From a virus, in IMG/VR virus record IMGVR_UViG_3300011113_000123, positions 1 through 64,000 of that record: 64,000 nt of DNA; one strand, given 5' to 3'. Under the pieces are notes generated by a model. The model was not told the DNA's origin. It worked only from the letters and a program-made list of their open reading frames with translations, and ran no database searches. The translations under genes and the position numbers were made by a program. Shown one piece after another: positions 6,101-46,595 of the stretch (positions within the stretch are counted from its first letter, which is position 1; every line of letters begins with the position of its first letter).

Positions 6101-9100
6101 CAGATATGGCTAACAAGTTCCGTAAGTTTAACAATCGTCGCTACACCATGCGCGACATTGGTAAAATTGCTGAGCGCATTGATCGTCTTGAATATTACAC
6201 TTCACTGACTCTTCTCGAAAAGTCAGCGCAGGATATGTTGGTTCAAGATGCTAATGGTCTAGATCGTTTCAAGAACGGTATCCTAGTCGACTCGTTCACT
6301 ACACATGCTGTAGGTAACGTGTTTGATCCAGACTATAAGATCGCGATTGATCCAGAGAGGGGCGAGATTCGTCCACGCTTCTCTATCGATGAAACTCCTC
6401 TGGTTATGACTGCGAACTCAACACACGTTGTTCGCACGAACGTGACTCCTTCTGGCGTTTCAAAAGATCAGGTTATTACTCTAACGACTGCACCCACTTC
6501 AGCGACGTTCCTTGCTGGAGCTACGGTAACATCTGGTTCTTATACAGCTACAATCAGACATAAGGTCGGAACTAAACTGTATGTTGAAAACGCAACAGGA
6601 AACTTTGCGGCTGCTGCGACTATAACAAGCAGTGATAGTGGATCAAGAACTATTTCTTCTGTAACTGCATCTATTCCTGGTAAGTTGGTTACTCTACCGT
6701 ATACACACGAAGTTCTTATCAGGCAGCCATACGCAACGACAACAAGAAACTGCGTAGGAACATTCTACAAGTATGTTGGTTTGTTGCAACTTGATCCTGA
6801 TAACGATTACTGGTGTGATACTGTTCAGGGGCCCGACACAAACATCTCGATTGATCTAAACACCGACGCATGGGAATATCTTGCGTCTACATGGCCTGCT
6901 ACATGGAACTCGCCAATCACGAGTTTCACAGGCGGTCCCGTTCTTACAGGATCTTCAACTAATGATGTTGGCGGAACATACTCAGTTCCTCAGGCTGATG
7001 GATCAACTATTATCTATCAGAATACGCAGACCGTTTCTACCTTTGCTACACCTACTGTAACAACACAAACAGGAAATCAGACTGGTGTTGGATTTGTAAC
7101 GACTACTCAGTCTTATGGAAATATCGTAAAAGATACTTCGATTATTCCGTTTATGCGTTCTCGACAGATTTTGTTTAAGATGTCAGGAATGTTGCCTTCT
7201 GTTCGCGTATATGGTTTCTTTGATGGCGTTAATGTTAACGCATACATCACACCTATTACAGAAGCAGAATATAACTCGAAGTTAAAATCGGCTACGGGTG
7301 CTCCTGTAAATCCTGCTGCTTCTGCTGGAAGCGCGCTGGTTGTAGGCACAGACGGTGTGGCATATGGTGTGTTCCGCATTCCTAACGACGCGTCGTTGAA
7401 GTTTAGAACAGGATCAAAGCGTTTGCGTTTCGTAGATAGTCCTACGAATTCGATAACATTTGGACAGTTTACGACTTCATGCGAAGCAGCATATACAGCT
7501 GAAGGATTGTTGCAGAACGTTTCTGCTTTAACAATCACAACCAAGTCTGTAGAAATCACTCAGACTTCGTTGAACTCAACGACATATGGTTCACAGACTT
7601 CGTCAACAACGGCAAGTGGTACTAGAATCGTAGGCGTAATTCCTCCTGATCCAGGCGATGATGGTACGGTTGATCCACCTCGCGACGATGGTGACGATAG
7701 TGATCCGATTGCTCAATCTATGTTCATTTCTAGCCGTCTTGTTGCTAAAACAGGATCGAGCGGTATGTACATGACTAAGATCGATCTGTTCTTTGCAACT
7801 AAGGACCCAACGCTACCTATCACAGTTCAGCTTCAAGAAATTGAACCGCTGACAGGTCACATCACACCTAGAGTTGTTCCATTCTCTAGAGTGGTTGTTC
7901 CTTCAGCTGACGTTAATATAAGCACCGACGGATCTGCACCAACACCAGTTGTATTCCCATCTCCAGTATATCTGAGCAATGAAACAGAATACGCAGTTGT
8001 TCTGATTCCAGCGGCTGTGAATCCAAACTATAATGCGTTCACAGCAGTTCTTGGTGAAAAGGATCTTGTAGCTGGTTCTGTTGTTTCTGAGCAGCCAGCA
8101 TCTGGATTCATGTTCACCTCTGCAAACCAGCGCACATGGGTTCCTGTTGAAAATGAAGATCTTAAGTTTACTGCTTACTATGCGGAGTTCGATAAGAACA
8201 CCACAGGTAATCTGATTGTTAAGAATCCTTCGCGCGAGCATCTGACGATTGCTAACACAACTGGTGCTCTATCGCGCATCGGTGAAGTTGTTCATGGTCA
8301 GACAAGAATCGTGGGTACGTTCAGCATTGCTGCTGGTAACACATCTGCAATCAATACCCACATCGCTAACAACTCAGCATACGCTCAGGGTATCACTTCA
8401 GGCGCAACTGGTAAGCTAGTAAAGCTGACACCAACAGCTCTTATCATCCGCGACGTTTCTACAACCGCCACATTTAGAGGCGGTGAAAAGATTCGTATTC
8501 GTGTGGCGAACACGGTCACACGAAATGCAACTACAGGCGAAATCAAGGGAACAGGAACAGCAACATCTGCTACGTTCCCAGCTGGTCGTGTTACATACTA
8601 TGATCCAATCAACTATGCAAACACTCGATTGATTTTGGCTAACACTTCTTATATTAACAGCGGTGCAGCATTCGCTAACGCTCGTTTGTTCACTACGAAC
8701 ACTTACATCAAAGGTCAGACGAACGGATACAGTGCTCGTATTGTAACAATCAATAACGTTACGATTGATAATCTAAACTTGATCACTAATATGATTGTTC
8801 CTTCAAATAATGAAGTTCGTGCGTTCGCTAAGATGGCTACATCTACTTCTGCGCGCGACGCTTCGTTCTTTAGAGTCAACATCAACGGTGATTTAGAACT
8901 GAAGTCTCCTCGTTATGTGTTGAGTCGCAGCATTGAAGCTAACACGTCTGCTTCTTCTGCAACTATGGTCAACGATAGATCTGTAGAAATCAAGTATGAA
9001 CTTGATGGAAGAAATATCGTAGCTTCGCCAGCTATCGATCTTGATCGTATTTCGTTGTATCATACACACAATCTAATCAGCACCGACGGTGAAATTTCTA

Positions 9101-42529: not shown

Positions 42530-43930
42530 ATGCAATCTCTGAACGAATCAATTCAGAAGAAGTGGCAGCCAGTCCTGGAACATCCTGATCTGGCTCCCAT
42601 TAAGGACGTTCACCGTCGTACCGTAGTAGCTCAGCTTCTTGAGAACCAGGAAAGAGCTGCTCGTGAAGATGGCTTCGGTTCTGGCGGTTATCGCGCTCCA
42701 GGTCTCCTGGGCGAAGCTGCTCCAACCAACGCTATGGGCAATTCATCTTCAACAGCTGGCGACGGCTCGATCGACACATTCGATCCAGTGCTCATCTCAC
42801 TGGTACGTCGTTCTATGCCAAACCTGATCGCATACGATATCTGCGGCGTTCAGCCAATGACAGGTCCAACAGGCCTGATCTTCGCAATGCGTTCACGTTT
42901 CACTAACCAGTCAACGACTCCAGAAGCTCTCTTCAACGAAGCTAACACAACGTTCTCTGGTTCAGCCGCTGGCAACACTGCTTCACGCAAGGTTGTTGGT
43001 AACACATCAACAGGCCGCTTCCAGCAGTCAAACGATCCAACGGATCGTGCATCAGCCGCTACAACTGGTTCATACACTGTTTCAACAGGTATGTCACGTT
43101 CAGCAGCTGAAGCTCTTGGCGACGGTTCTGCTAATGCGTTCCAGGAAATGGCATTCAGCATTGAGAAGGTAGCGGTTACAGCAGTATCACGCGCTCTCAA
43201 GGCAGAATACACAATGGAACTTGCTCAGGATCTTAAGGCCATTCACGGTCTTGATGCTGAGACAGAACTCTCGAACATCCTTGCTGCTGAAATCCTTTCG
43301 GAAATCAACCGCGAAGTTGTTCGTACAATCAACTACACCGCTTCTATCGGTGCTCAGGAAAACGTAACCACAGCCGGTACGTTCAACCTGGACGTTGACT
43401 CAAACGGACGTTGGATGGTTGAAAAGTTCAAGGGTCTTCTCTTCCAGATCGAGCGTGAGTCTAACCAGATCGCTAAGGCAACTCGTAGAGGCAAGGGTAA
43501 CGTTATGATCTGCGGATCTGACGTAGCTTCTGCTCTTCAGATGGCTGGCGTTCTTGATTACACCCCAGCTCTTGCTAACAACCTGAACGTAGACGACACA
43601 GGCAACACGTTTGCTGGTGTTCTGAACGGACGTATCAAGGTCTATATCGACCCATACTTCGCTTCAACTTCAGGCAAGCAGTATTTCACACTCGGGTACA
43701 AGGGCTCCTCAGCTTTCGACGCCGGTCTGTTCTACTGCCCATACGTTCCTCTCCAGATGGTTCGCGCCGTTGGTCAGGACACATTCCAGCCAAAGATTGG
43801 CTTCAAGACACGTTACGGAATGGTTGCAAACCCATTCGCAACGTCTTCAGCCGACGGCGTTATTGGTGCACCAAACACCAAGGGCTACAACGTCTACTAT
43901 CGCTTCGTGCAGGTTACAAACCTCATGTAA
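42530..43930 (+). CDS. 23: Major capsid protein gp23
   Basis: A 466-residue protein. T4-like gp23 landmarks: NESIQKKWQPVLEHP, RRTVVAQLLENQE, SMPNLIAYDICGVQPMTGPTGLIFAMRSRF, YTMELAQDLKAIHGLDAE and YVPLQMVRAVGQDTFQPKIGFKTRYGM. A gp21 cleavage site (LGE before AAPTN) puts the mature N-terminus after E62. AGGAG lies upstream. No second capsid paralogue (gp24) follows directly. Confidence 0.96.
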   Translation: MQSLNESIQKKWQPVLEHPDLAPIKDVHRRTVVAQLLENQERAAREDGFGSGGYRAPGLLGEAAPTNAMGNSSSTAGDGSIDTFDPVLISLVRRSMPNLIAYDICGVQPMTGPTGLIFAMRSRFTNQSTTPEALFNEANTTFSGSAAGNTASRKVVGNTSTGRFQQSNDPTDRASAATTGSYTVSTGMSRSAAEALGDGSANAFQEMAFSIEKVAVTAVSRALKAEYTMELAQDLKAIHGLDAETELSNILAAEILSEINREVVRTINYTASIGAQENVTTAGTFNLDVDSNGRWMVEKFKGLLFQIERESNQIAKATRRGKGNVMICGSDVASALQMAGVLDYTPALANNLNVDDTGNTFAGVLNGRIKVYIDPYFASTSGKQYFTLGYKGSSAFDAGLFYCPYVPLQMVRAVGQDTFQPKIGFKTRYGMVANPFATSSADGVIGAPNTKGYNVYYRFVQVTNLM

Positions 43931-44024: not shown

Positions 44025-44573
44025 ATGAGCGCACTCGAAAACCAACCATCGAACATCAACTTCCTCGGGCAAAACGGATTTCGATTTGCTATCAAGAGGC
44101 TTCCTGGTGTAAACTATTTCTGTCAGGCTGCTACGATTCCCGCAGTTTCTATGACGCCTGTGCAAAGCCCTACTCCATTCGCGTCTGTTCCGCGCCCTGG
44201 CGATCGTATCACGTACGAGCCACTGACGGTTATCTTTAAAGTAGACGAGGATCTAAAGAACTACTTCGAGATCCAGAAGTGGCTTGAGGGGCTAGGGCAT
44301 CCTGATAGCTTGGATCAAACTCGCCAACTATCTAAGAACATCAATAACAATCTGATCGCTGGTACTCGTCCAGTTGGCTATTACACAACGTTCATGTCTG
44401 ATGCTGTTCTTTCTATCCTTACCAGTGCCAAGAACTTGAACAAGAATATCATGTTCTTTGATCTGTTCCCACTCAGTCTTTCGGAACTGAGCTTTGAAAC
44501 GACCAACAGAACGATTGACTATCTTGAGGCAACAGCTACGTTCAGCTATCGTAAGTATGAGTTAGAAGAGTAA
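44025..44573 (+). CDS. Tail-tube-fold protein, gp19 paralogue
   Basis: A 182-residue protein. NGFRFAIKRLPGVNYFCQAATIPAVSM followed by a Pro-rich loop, RITYEPLTVIFKVDEDLKNYFEIQKWLEGLGHP, parallels the tail tube protein at 32118 (CKATSLPT then VPYFGRKV, then FENWQVTVMNDEDFLVRNAFELW). In T4, gp54 (tube initiator) shares the gp19 fold, and some T4-like genomes carry a tail completion protein here. I cannot choose between these roles from sequence alone. Located between gp23 and uvsY. Confidence 0.6.
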   Translation: MSALENQPSNINFLGQNGFRFAIKRLPGVNYFCQAATIPAVSMTPVQSPTPFASVPRPGDRITYEPLTVIFKVDEDLKNYFEIQKWLEGLGHPDSLDQTRQLSKNINNNLIAGTRPVGYYTTFMSDAVLSILTSAKNLNKNIMFFDLFPLSLSELSFETTNRTIDYLEATATFSYRKYELEE

Positions 44574-44580
44574 TCTAACC

Positions 44581-44593
44581 CTGTGTAACACAG
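44581..44593. promoter_or_regulatory. 13-bp palindrome at the leftward start site
   Basis: CTGTG-TAA-CACAG is a perfect inverted repeat. It covers the predicted start point of the leftward promoter at 44597-44625, the usual place for an operator. No repressor is identified. Confidence 0.4.
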
Positions 44594-44596
44594 ATC

Positions 44597-44625
44597 ATTA
44601 TAATGGCATAAGTTCCAGTTGTCAA
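44597..44625 (-). promoter_or_regulatory. Perfect-consensus sigma-70 promoter, leftward
   Basis: Read on the minus strand: TTGACA (44625-44620), a 17-base spacer and TATAAT (44602-44597), all twelve consensus bases matching. It points away from uvsY into the 3' ends of the tail-tube paralogue and capsid genes. No minus-strand gene lies downstream for 25 kb, so its product would be an antisense or small RNA. Confidence 0.65.
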
Positions 44626-44648
44626 GAACTACTTTACTCTTGACAACT
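44617..44648. repeat. Inverted repeat joining divergent -35 boxes
   Basis: AGTTGTCAAG (44617-44626) is the exact reverse complement of CTTGACAACT (44639-44648), with a 12-base gap. Each arm contains one -35 hexamer, one for the leftward and one for the rightward promoter. It may be a shared operator. Confidence 0.6.
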
Positions 44649-44668
44649 AATGATACAAGTGGTAAACT
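44640..44668 (+). promoter_or_regulatory. Sigma-70-type promoter for uvsY
   Basis: TTGACA (44640-44645), 17-base spacer, TAAACT (44663-44668; four of six matches). It ends seven bases before the uvsY ATG, so the leader would be almost absent. The -35 belongs to the same extended TTGACAAC family as the other early promoters here. Confidence 0.55.
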
Positions 44669-44674
44669 TATCAT

Positions 44675-45112
44675 ATGAAGCTAGAAAATATTTACGCCAT
44701 GTGGGAAGCCGATAGCAAGTATGATGATCTCAACTTGGATAAGGACTCTCTCAACATCTCATCCCTCCACGCCAAGTACAATCGGCTACTGAGTGAAACT
44801 CGTAGCCAATTGCGTTCAGCTGTCATCAAGAAGAAAGCTCATTATAGCACGCTCCGCGATTACTATTTGGGTCATTTGAATAATCCACAGGACCTAGAAC
44901 GTATTGGTCGCGAGCCCTTCCTTAACAAGGTTCTAAAGAACGAAGTTCAGGGCTACATAGATTCTGATGGTGATCTTATTCGTATCGACGAGCGTATTGC
45001 TCTTCTCGAAGAAAAGGTCGAAGTCATTGTTGAAATCATGAAGTGTATCCACAAGCGCGGATACGATATCAAGTCCGCGATTGAGTGGAGAAAGTTTACT
45101 AATGGATTCTGA
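44675..45112 (+). CDS. uvsY: Recombination mediator UvsY
   Basis: A 145-residue protein. MKLENIYAMWEADSKYDDLNLDKDSLNISSLHAKYNRLL followed by a helical middle and IDSDGDLIRIDERIALLEEKVEVI are typical of UvsY. It loads the recombinase UvsX onto gp32-covered single-stranded DNA. It is the first gene of the recombination operon and overlaps uvsW by 11 bases. Confidence 0.9.
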   Translation: MKLENIYAMWEADSKYDDLNLDKDSLNISSLHAKYNRLLSETRSQLRSAVIKKKAHYSTLRDYYLGHLNNPQDLERIGREPFLNKVLKNEVQGYIDSDGDLIRIDERIALLEEKVEVIVEIMKCIHKRGYDIKSAIEWRKFTNGF

Positions 45113-46595
45113 CGTAACTCTGACTAAGGTAAATGAAGCATTCATGCGCGTGGACGGGAACGCGGGTATCGTGCGTGAAGTTGCTGACTATCTTACGTTT
45201 GAAGTTCCTGGTGCTAAGTTTTCGCCGAAGTATAAATCAAGAGTCTGGGACGGTAAGATTCGCTTGCTTAACTCACGCAACATGCAATGTTACGCTGGTC
45301 TTGCTCACAACGTAAAGTCATTCTGTGAAGAGAATGGGTTCAGCGTTTCTATTGATCATGAACTCATTATGACTGAGGAGTTTTCACTTGAAGAAGCTAA
45401 AGATTTCGCTGCCACCTTGGGATTACCTTTTCAGCCTAATCCTCATCAGCTTCGCGCTTTTGCACTTGCTGTTCGCAATAGTCGTGGGATCCTTGTTAGT
45501 CCTACCGCTTCTGGTAAATCCCTAATAGTATATCTCATCACGAGGTATTACAATGCTCGTACTCTTATTATTGTTCCAAATATTTCTTTGGTTAATCAGC
45601 TTGCCTCTGACTTTGCTGACTATGGTTTTCTTTCCGATACTCATGTCCATCGAATCTACTCAGGGCAAGATAAACAAACGGATAGACAGGTTACCATCTC
45701 AACCTGGCAATCGATTTACGAACTTCCTAAAGCGTATTTCGAACAGTTTGAGGTGGTCATAGGCGACGAGGTACATCTGTTCAAAGCGCAGTCGCTGACT
45801 AAGATCATGACAAACTGCACGGATGTTAAGTATCGCTTTGGTGTCACCGGAACGCTCGACGACTCGCAAGTCAACGAGCTGATACTGAACGGTCTCTTTG
45901 GTCCTACACATAAGATCATCACCACGAAAGAACTGATTGATAGTGGTACGCTCGCTGAAATCAAAATCAAAGTTCTTGTTCTCAGTCATCCTCTCGAAGA
46001 ACGTAAAAAGTTAATCGACAAGACGTATCAAGATGAAATAGAACACATCATCAGCTATAGCCCGCGCAACAAGTTCATTCGCAATCTTGCTCTGTCGCTC
46101 AAGGGTAATACGTTGATTCTCTATTCATACGTTGAGAAGCATGGTGACGTTCTGCAACAGATGATCAAGGAGAAAGCGAACGGACGCAAAGTGTTCTACG
46201 TTCATGGTGGAGTTGATGGTCAAGAACGTGAAGAGATTCGACACATCGTAGAAAAGGAAACGGATGCTATCATCGTAGCTTCTTATGGAACGTTCTCTAC
46301 TGGAATCAACATCAAGAATCTACACAACGTCATCTTCAGTAGCCCCACTAAGAGTCGAATCAGAACGATGCAGTCTGTTGGTCGTGGATTGCGCGTTTCT
46401 GACACAAAAACTTCTATGACCCTATTTGACATTGCAGACGACTTGACGCATAATAAGAAGAAGAACTATACGTTGAACCATCTTATCGAACGTGTCAAGA
46501 TGTATAGCAGTGAAGAGTTCCCCTACGAACTCCACAATATCAAACTCAGGAGCGATAATGCAACAGGGCGAAGTTTATTTTCTGAAGCTGAATAA
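45102..46595 (+). CDS. uvsW: DNA helicase UvsW
   Basis: A 497-residue SF2 helicase. ATG 45102 is chosen over the TTG at 45081 because a Shine-Dalgarno-like GGAGAAAG precedes it. Motifs: Walker A PTASGKS (K139), DEVH box (GDEVHLF), TGTLDD and the C-terminal VASYGTFSTGINIKNLHNVIF with QSVGRGLR. UvsW unwinds branched recombination intermediates and R-loops, switching the phage from origin- to recombination-dependent replication. Confidence 0.92.
   Translation: MDSDVTLTKVNEAFMRVDGNAGIVREVADYLTFEVPGAKFSPKYKSRVWDGKIRLLNSRNMQCYAGLAHNVKSFCEENGFSVSIDHELIMTEEFSLEEAKDFAATLGLPFQPNPHQLRAFALAVRNSRGILVSPTASGKSLIVYLITRYYNARTLIIVPNISLVNQLASDFADYGFLSDTHVHRIYSGQDKQTDRQVTISTWQSIYELPKAYFEQFEVVIGDEVHLFKAQSLTKIMTNCTDVKYRFGVTGTLDDSQVNELILNGLFGPTHKIITTKELIDSGTLAEIKIKVLVLSHPLEERKKLIDKTYQDEIEHIISYSPRNKFIRNLALSLKGNTLILYSYVEKHGDVLQQMIKEKANGRKVFYVHGGVDGQEREEIRHIVEKETDAIIVASYGTFSTGINIKNLHNVIFSSPTKSRIRTMQSVGRGLRVSDTKTSMTLFDIADDLTHNKKKNYTLNHLIERVKMYSSEEFPYELHNIKLRSDNATGRSLFSEAE

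Follow-up and report, generated by a model that had tools for sequence, protein, structure and literature searches.

Backward copies of a promoter element upstream of uvsY and at two further loci of a T4-like phage as candidate transcript-primed replication origins

The leftward promoter that faces away from uvsY in the uncultured virus record IMGVR_UViG_3300011113_000123 (157,580 bases) was found to be one copy of a multi-copy element that points against the direction of the genes at three loci. The element consists of a sigma70 promoter, a TGT start and a GG[G]GTCA box. The window analyzed here comprises bases 1 to 64000 of this record, a stretch of 64,000 nucleotides, and the remainder of the genome and related phages were compared with it. 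Judged from the sequences, what is conserved extends beyond the one site noted in a preliminary description of the window and occurs more widely; the sister copies elsewhere in the genome were overlooked there. We tentatively propose, as a possible reading, that the leftward promoters are transcript-primed replication origins that would work like oriE of phage T4, one of them at the uvsY locus of T4 oriF.

By its gene content the virus is a T4-like phage, because it has the gene order gp21-gp22-gp23-tail tube-uvsY-uvsW-gp55-gp47-gp46 together with a T4-type polymerase, clamp, clamp loader, helicase and UvsX; the replication genes found also include uvsY, uvsW and RNase H. Its uvsY was less than 40% identical to that of every phage in the annotated collection. 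T4-type RNase H was detected in genomes G000 and G002, and a search of the relative G001 gave no match. A gp59-like protein scored above the cut-off in G001 and weakly, below the cut-off, in G000. Searches of G000, G001 and G002 detected no MotA, while the T4 positive control did match. A rough gene call across the whole genome gave 137 genes on the plus strand versus 8 on the minus strand, and early promoters with no more than one mismatch numbered 34 and 4, respectively.

The divergent promoters upstream of uvsY and the features around them are listed in Table 1. Several elements of the preliminary description were confirmed exactly: the leftward promoter matching consensus at every position, the plus-strand promoter of uvsY, the perfect inverted repeat that holds both -35 boxes, the 13-bp palindrome over the leftward start, and the absence of any minus-strand gene 3' of the leftward promoter. 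In 300 first-order Markov copies, a 12/12 match at spacing 17 occurred a mean of 0.01 times per window. The promoter had also been described as antisense to capsid genes. This was partly right, as gp23 does lie in its path, but behind the tail tube gene, which is the first to be met. A switch controlled by one operator had been suggested as well, and it is not needed. Across the genome, TTGACA promoters with at most one -10 mismatch had a C before the hexamer in 29 of 37 cases and an A after it in 32 of 37, and for the most part the inverted repeat reflects this common (C)TTGACAA(C/T), which both -35 boxes carry. Two copies of the usual context suffice, which makes the repeat weak evidence for an operator, and the operator reading was dropped.

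Table 1. Promoter node and neighboring genes in the 64,000-nucleotide window
Feature	Position	Strand	Basis	Detail
Leftward sigma70 promoter TTGACA-17-TATAAT, element copy 1	44597..44625	-	12/12 consensus	TTGACA 44625-44620, TATAAT 44602-44597, spacer 17 bp
Rightward sigma70 promoter of uvsY, TTGACA-17-TAAACT	44640..44668	+	10/12	TTGACA 44640-44645, spacer 17, TAAACT 44663-44668
Perfect 10-bp inverted repeat, both divergent -35 regions	44617..44648	both	sequence	arms AGTTGTCAAG 44617-44626 and CTTGACAACT 44639-44648, no mismatch
Start-site box: palindrome, predicted start, then GGGTTA (GGGGTCA in relatives)	44574..44596	-	start from -10 spacing	13-bp palindrome CTGTGTTACACAG, 44593-44581; predicted start about 44589-44591
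uvsY	44675..45112	+	phrog_231, 2e-36	ATG at 44675
uvsW helicase	45108..46595	+	phrog_16, 9e-104	
Tail tube protein gene	44025..44573	+	phrog_45, 3.5e-38	nearest gene antisense to the leftward transcript
Major capsid protein gp23	42530..43930	+	phrog_138, 7e-165	second antisense gene if the leftward transcript is longer

The start of the rightward promoter would fall on or beside the uvsY ATG, the -10 hexamer being separated from the ATG by exactly 6 bases in 33 of 40 unique relatives, and no Shine-Dalgarno-like sequence was present before uvsY in any of the 40. Given this short distance and the absence of a Shine-Dalgarno-like sequence, the uvsY mRNA seems to be leaderless. The layout at gp43, whose promoter is at 65568, is the same as at uvsY.

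Among the four minus-strand promoters of the genome with at most one mismatch, three were perfect and had in common CTTGACAACT-N11-CCATTATAAT, followed by TGT and a GG[G]GTCA-like start region. A hidden Markov model (HMM) of the element, built from relatives only, was run against the whole genome and against the reversed genome. It matched exactly four copies, at 44625-, 78856-, 152917- and 110160+, with E values from 9e-10 to 9e-7 (3.6e-7 for copy 1 at uvsY); the next E value was 0.66, and the reversed genome gave zero matches. The copies at 44.6, 78.8 and 152.9 kb face leftward from gaps between plus-strand genes and oppose all of their neighbors. The plus-strand copy at 110.2 kb serves as the ordinary promoter of gene X (genome 110214-110606; L011:6214-6606), a small gene that encodes a 130-residue basic protein (MAILPIYYTTTNMRKRKTRKPTQ...) with a phrog_4593 C-terminal part, and there the GGGGTCA box occupies the Shine-Dalgarno position before the start codon. 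On a circular map the four copies are separated by gaps of 34, 31, 43 and 49 kb, an even spread with a P of about 0.008 versus random points on a circle, this value being post hoc and assuming a near-complete record. At the 78.8-kb and 152.9-kb (gp25) loci, a T4-type late promoter (TATAAATA or AATAAATA; genome 78865 and 152931, or L009:14865 and L013:8931) lies 6 to 13 bp from the leftward -35 box. This late promoter was present in every relative examined, at a nearly constant distance, one too short for the early and the late polymerase to be bound at once.

Two genes near these loci have unusual structures. The gene 3' of the 78.8-kb copy encodes a 1337-residue protein (genome 78948-82961; L009:14948-18961) with a cytidylyltransferase-like N terminus and phrog_455-like and DUF5824 parts, and it is split or shuffled in related phages. 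The baseplate hub gp5 is apparently split into an N-terminal domain gene and a C-terminal needle gene (genome 149315-149704 and 150505-151236; L013:5315-5704 and 6505-7236), between which lies a 262-residue gene without a match.

Approximately 55 IMG/VR contigs encode close relatives of this uvsY, and the node was found in nearly all of those that reach the region. The preliminary description had named conservation of the hexamers in relatives as a test, and this was strongly borne out by 38 of 39 unique uvsY nodes, in which the leftward promoter scored 12/12 (27 nodes) or 11/12 (11 nodes); the remaining node scored 10/12, and the spacing was 17 in all 39. The rightward uvsY promoter scored 9 to 11 of 12 in the unique relatives. 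Across all loci, hexamer identity was 0.92 to 1.00 versus a spacer identity of 0.40 to 0.49 (40% at uvsY), and the leftward promoter was perfect in 18 of 20 sequences at the 78.8-kb locus and 10 of 11 at the gp25 locus. The relative G001 had exactly three copies, which occupied these same loci and without exception opposed the genes, and G002, G003, G004 and G005 had the element at two or more of the three. In a second T4-like lineage (lineage B, G016) the backward element occurred at uvsY and also in the gap that separates gp16 from gp17. This terminase position was also seen in the lineage B contigs L259, L217, L276 and L333, and no TATAAATA-type late promoter was found in lineage B in the gap from the element to the gp17 start. 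Lineage B (L283) further contained a gene X-like gene (MGMMPVYFTTTSFRKRKKQ...) with its promoter and box arranged as at gene X. Gene X was not detected in G001, although three leftward copies are present there, and the idea of gene X as a universal regulator was dropped.

The node was absent at uvsY from six cultured or annotated records (HTVC008M, Cr30, S-CRM01, P-HM2, Melnitz and C48C1). When the element was used as a nucleotide query against the phage collection, the matches were due to chance only, an exact-pattern scan of IMG/VR gave a single, unrelated match inside a coding region, and no published reports of such promoters were found in the literature searched. A similar divergent node occurs in HMO-2011-related phages (L206, L225, L235, L238, L265 and L268) upstream of a small-terminase-like gene. 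Its leftward stretch of approximately 0.8 to 1 kb lacks long reading frames, has common blocks such as GTTAACTAGTTCTGGTTAA, and is a candidate non-coding RNA or origin region.

The leftward start is predicted to lie 7 to 8 bases past the -10 hexamer and thus inside the palindrome, so that the full hairpin would be missing from the leftward RNA. For the other two leftward copies the starts are predicted at about 78820-78821 and 152881-152882. In every copy of the element, the G of TGT sits 6 to 8 bases past the -10, which fits a transcription start. Boxes at different loci of one genome were more similar than boxes of different genomes (0.735 versus 0.576; exact permutation p of 0.004, six genomes). 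Imperfect palindromes centered on the start exceeded column-permuted controls at uvsY (p <0.001) and gp25 (p of 0.007), with no excess at the 78.8-kb locus (p of 0.11). The palindrome arms differ between sites of a single genome, as with GGATGTTATCC and GAATTGTATTC in G002, which makes a classical operator doubtful. The similarity within genomes may reflect recombination among the copies, or else recognition of the structure or the TGT...GGTCA frame by some factor, and judging from the boxes it still leaves room for a trans-acting factor. A hairpin at the 5' end of the RNA was rejected because the palindrome is centered on the predicted start, its arms vary, and the 78.8-kb locus shows no excess. 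A T7-type primase site (GGGTC) was rejected because the replisome is T4-type.

At the 78.8-kb and gp25 loci the upstream gene, which lies antisense to the leftward transcript, is swapped from one relative to another, with at least seven kinds at the 78.8-kb locus, whereas the element and the gene downstream of it are retained. No reduced synonymous variation was detected in the tail tube gene near the antisense start, and by neither measure was conserved pairing with an overlapping gene found. The leftward RNA of the window alone folded better than its shuffles (z of -3.3) but those of the relatives did not (mean z of -0.56, -0.04 and -0.42), and an Rfam search gave no match, and so a structured antisense or non-coding RNA was rejected. 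An early antisense RNA that keeps late structural mRNA silent, as suggested in the preliminary description, is consistent with the orientation of the promoter but is weakened by these properties, and target-specific silencing appears unlikely because the antisense gene is exchanged and neither synonymous constraint nor a conserved fold was seen. What selection preserves is thus the promoter together with approximately the first 15 transcribed bases.

These features are as expected if the leftward promoters prime replication, since the content of the RNA would then be irrelevant: a transcription start at the locus would matter, and the identity of the gene crossed would not. In the mechanism that we propose, each leftward copy would fire against the gene direction at its locus, unmodified host RNA polymerase would make a short leftward RNA early in infection, and this RNA would prime leading-strand DNA synthesis in the leftward direction. 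We infer transcription from these promoters, priming, R-loop formation and a role for the box. Origins are likelier than capsid silencing because two of the three leftward copies match T4 origin neighborhoods and the antisense targets keep changing. Copy 1 lies upstream of uvsY, in the gap to which oriF is assigned in the annotated T4 genome. The 152.9-kb copy follows the gp5 fragments and the PAAR gene (5.4) and precedes gp25 and gp6, and its predicted RNA would therefore run antisense to PAAR and gp5, which is also the arrangement in T4; no T4 origin counterpart of the 78.8-kb locus is known. By sequence, a promoter whose RNA could act as a primer is present, with 11 to 12 of 12 consensus positions, in 38 of 39 unique relatives. 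It is of the early type, as at oriE, and a leftward TTGATG-17-TATAAT is located at the annotated oriE position of T4. With MotA not detected, early promoters would remain for origin transcripts.

Other observations argue against the origin reading. The uvsY copy points away from uvsY, while in T4 the uvsY transcript itself is the primer at oriF; the correspondence of the 152.9-kb copy to oriE is one of gene neighborhood, at a different nucleotide position; and the element was missing at uvsY from the cultured T4-like phages that were checked. An A+T-rich unwinding element, which T4 oriF and oriG need downstream of their promoters, was not found downstream of the starts, where the A+T content from +1 to +100 was 0.59, 0.57 and 0.51 versus a background of 0.56 (0.58 to 0.59 versus 0.57 to 0.59 in relatives). 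Because this A+T-rich element was not found, we say of the promoters only that they may work like T4 oriE and do not assign them to the T4-type origins. No strand-composition switch was seen at the element sites, and this was discarded as origin evidence. Since one copy is the sense promoter of gene X, the element is no dedicated origin signal. It is doubtful that the copies constitute a sequence-defined origin family, in which identical modules of promoter and start box at three to four spaced loci would be read at the box by a phage or host factor and would be portable between uvsY, gp25, the 78.9-kb gene and, in lineage B, gp16/gp17.

As a generalized form of the antisense idea in the preliminary description, strong leftward transcription early in infection might instead oppose rightward late transcription until gp55 displaces the host sigma70, whether through antisense pairing, through polymerases colliding head-on or by occluding the rightward promoter next to it. 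All three leftward copies do oppose late or structural genes, a perfect consensus would give immediate activity, and at the 78.8-kb and gp25 loci, where the -35 box is 6 to 13 bp from the late promoter, the polymerases would overlap. However, such a neighbor exists at only 2 of approximately 14 late promoters, the neighbor at uvsY is an early promoter, and the lineage B element between gp16 and gp17 has no TATAAATA-type late promoter between it and gp17. The antisense gene is replaced from one relative to another without loss of the element, the antisense body is without constraint, and the conserved start-site box is unnecessary for silencing, so that we regard interference as rather unlikely. 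A phage-encoded regulator might recognize the box and control the three leftward promoters jointly with that of gene X, much as lambda CII acts on pRE, pI and paQ, with no particular role implied for the leftward RNAs. The greater likeness of boxes within genomes, the start-centered imperfect palindromes at uvsY and gp25, and the promoter and box common to gene X and the gene X-like gene of lineage B are consistent with this. The within-genome likeness could also result from recombination among copies, however, and the arms vary within G002, unlike those of a protein operator; the 78.8-kb locus lacks a palindrome excess, and G001 has three leftward copies without a detected gene X. Such a regulon is unlikely.

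The copies could also be promoters of very short or unrecognized leftward genes, or relic cassettes of promoter and ribosome site in which GGGGTCA is a former Shine-Dalgarno sequence. An identical box occupies the Shine-Dalgarno position at gene X, and in T4 two tiny antisense genes, repEA and repEB, are encoded on the oriE transcripts. Nearly all leftward copies nevertheless lack a start codon at a usable distance, the sequences that follow the copies show no relation between relatives, since the gene beneath them differs, and relics would not hold their hexamers at 92 to 100% identity, making this explanation highly improbable.

T4 origins have been described as sharing few obvious sequence characteristics. 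Since they are known in one phage and have little sequence in common, origins have been unpredictable in the T4-like phages, which are very abundant in lakes and seas. An origin family of the kind outlined above, if true, would be the first T4-like origin class recognizable from sequence alone. The T4 literature poses the questions of whether R-loops also serve at the other T4 origins and by which rules they form (PMC3016281), and if the modules are origins, they could be read from sequence and their natural variants would make such R-loop questions testable. If they are antisense or interference devices instead, they would form a set of backward promoters that spans the genome of a lytic phage and is conserved to an unusual degree.

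The stoperators of L5-type mycobacteriophages contain TGTCAAG, which also occurs here on the plus strand, and like the element they are multiple dispersed intergenic sites in one orientation. Stoperators, however, are short asymmetric repressor sites found genome-wide, whereas only four copies were found here, each a complete promoter. Lambda CII activates an antisense promoter set comprising pRE, pI and paQ. This set and the T4 gene 32 antisense RNA resemble the present element in that several coordinated promoters oppose genes needed later. The studied phage differs from these antisense early promoters in its unconserved target gene, its complete host sigma70 consensus and the lack of a known activator.

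The T4 origins offer closer comparisons. They make RNA primers, oriE needs an early promoter, and UvsW removes or unwinds origin R-loops (Kreuzer and Brister, PMC3016281). In the annotated T4 genome the oriG primer RNA opposes a late gene and the oriA primer RNA is sense. The leftward copies are similar to oriG, or ori(34), in that the primer RNA would oppose an adjacent late gene, but in T4 this origin is at the gene 34 locus and has a MotA-dependent promoter. The resemblance to oriF, or ori(uvsY), lies in a promoter node immediately 5' of uvsY with uvsW close by. T4 uses a MotA-dependent middle promoter there, with the uvsY mRNA as the transcript and an A+T-rich unwinding element downstream, whereas here the conserved extra promoter faces away from uvsY, MotA was undetected and no A+T-rich element was found. 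T4 oriE is annotated in the gene 5 / 5.4 / 6 region, where the "primer RNA is complement of gene 5 transcript." In T4 this origin is contained in gene 5 and carries repEA and repEB, whereas the studied phage has an intergenic element with sister copies, at which no repE genes were recognized. Both have an early-type sigma70 promoter, an RNA antisense to late baseplate genes (predicted in the present case) and a T4-type replisome, and the 152.9-kb copy lies in the same gene neighborhood as oriE, in the order gp5, PAAR, element, gp25 and gp6.
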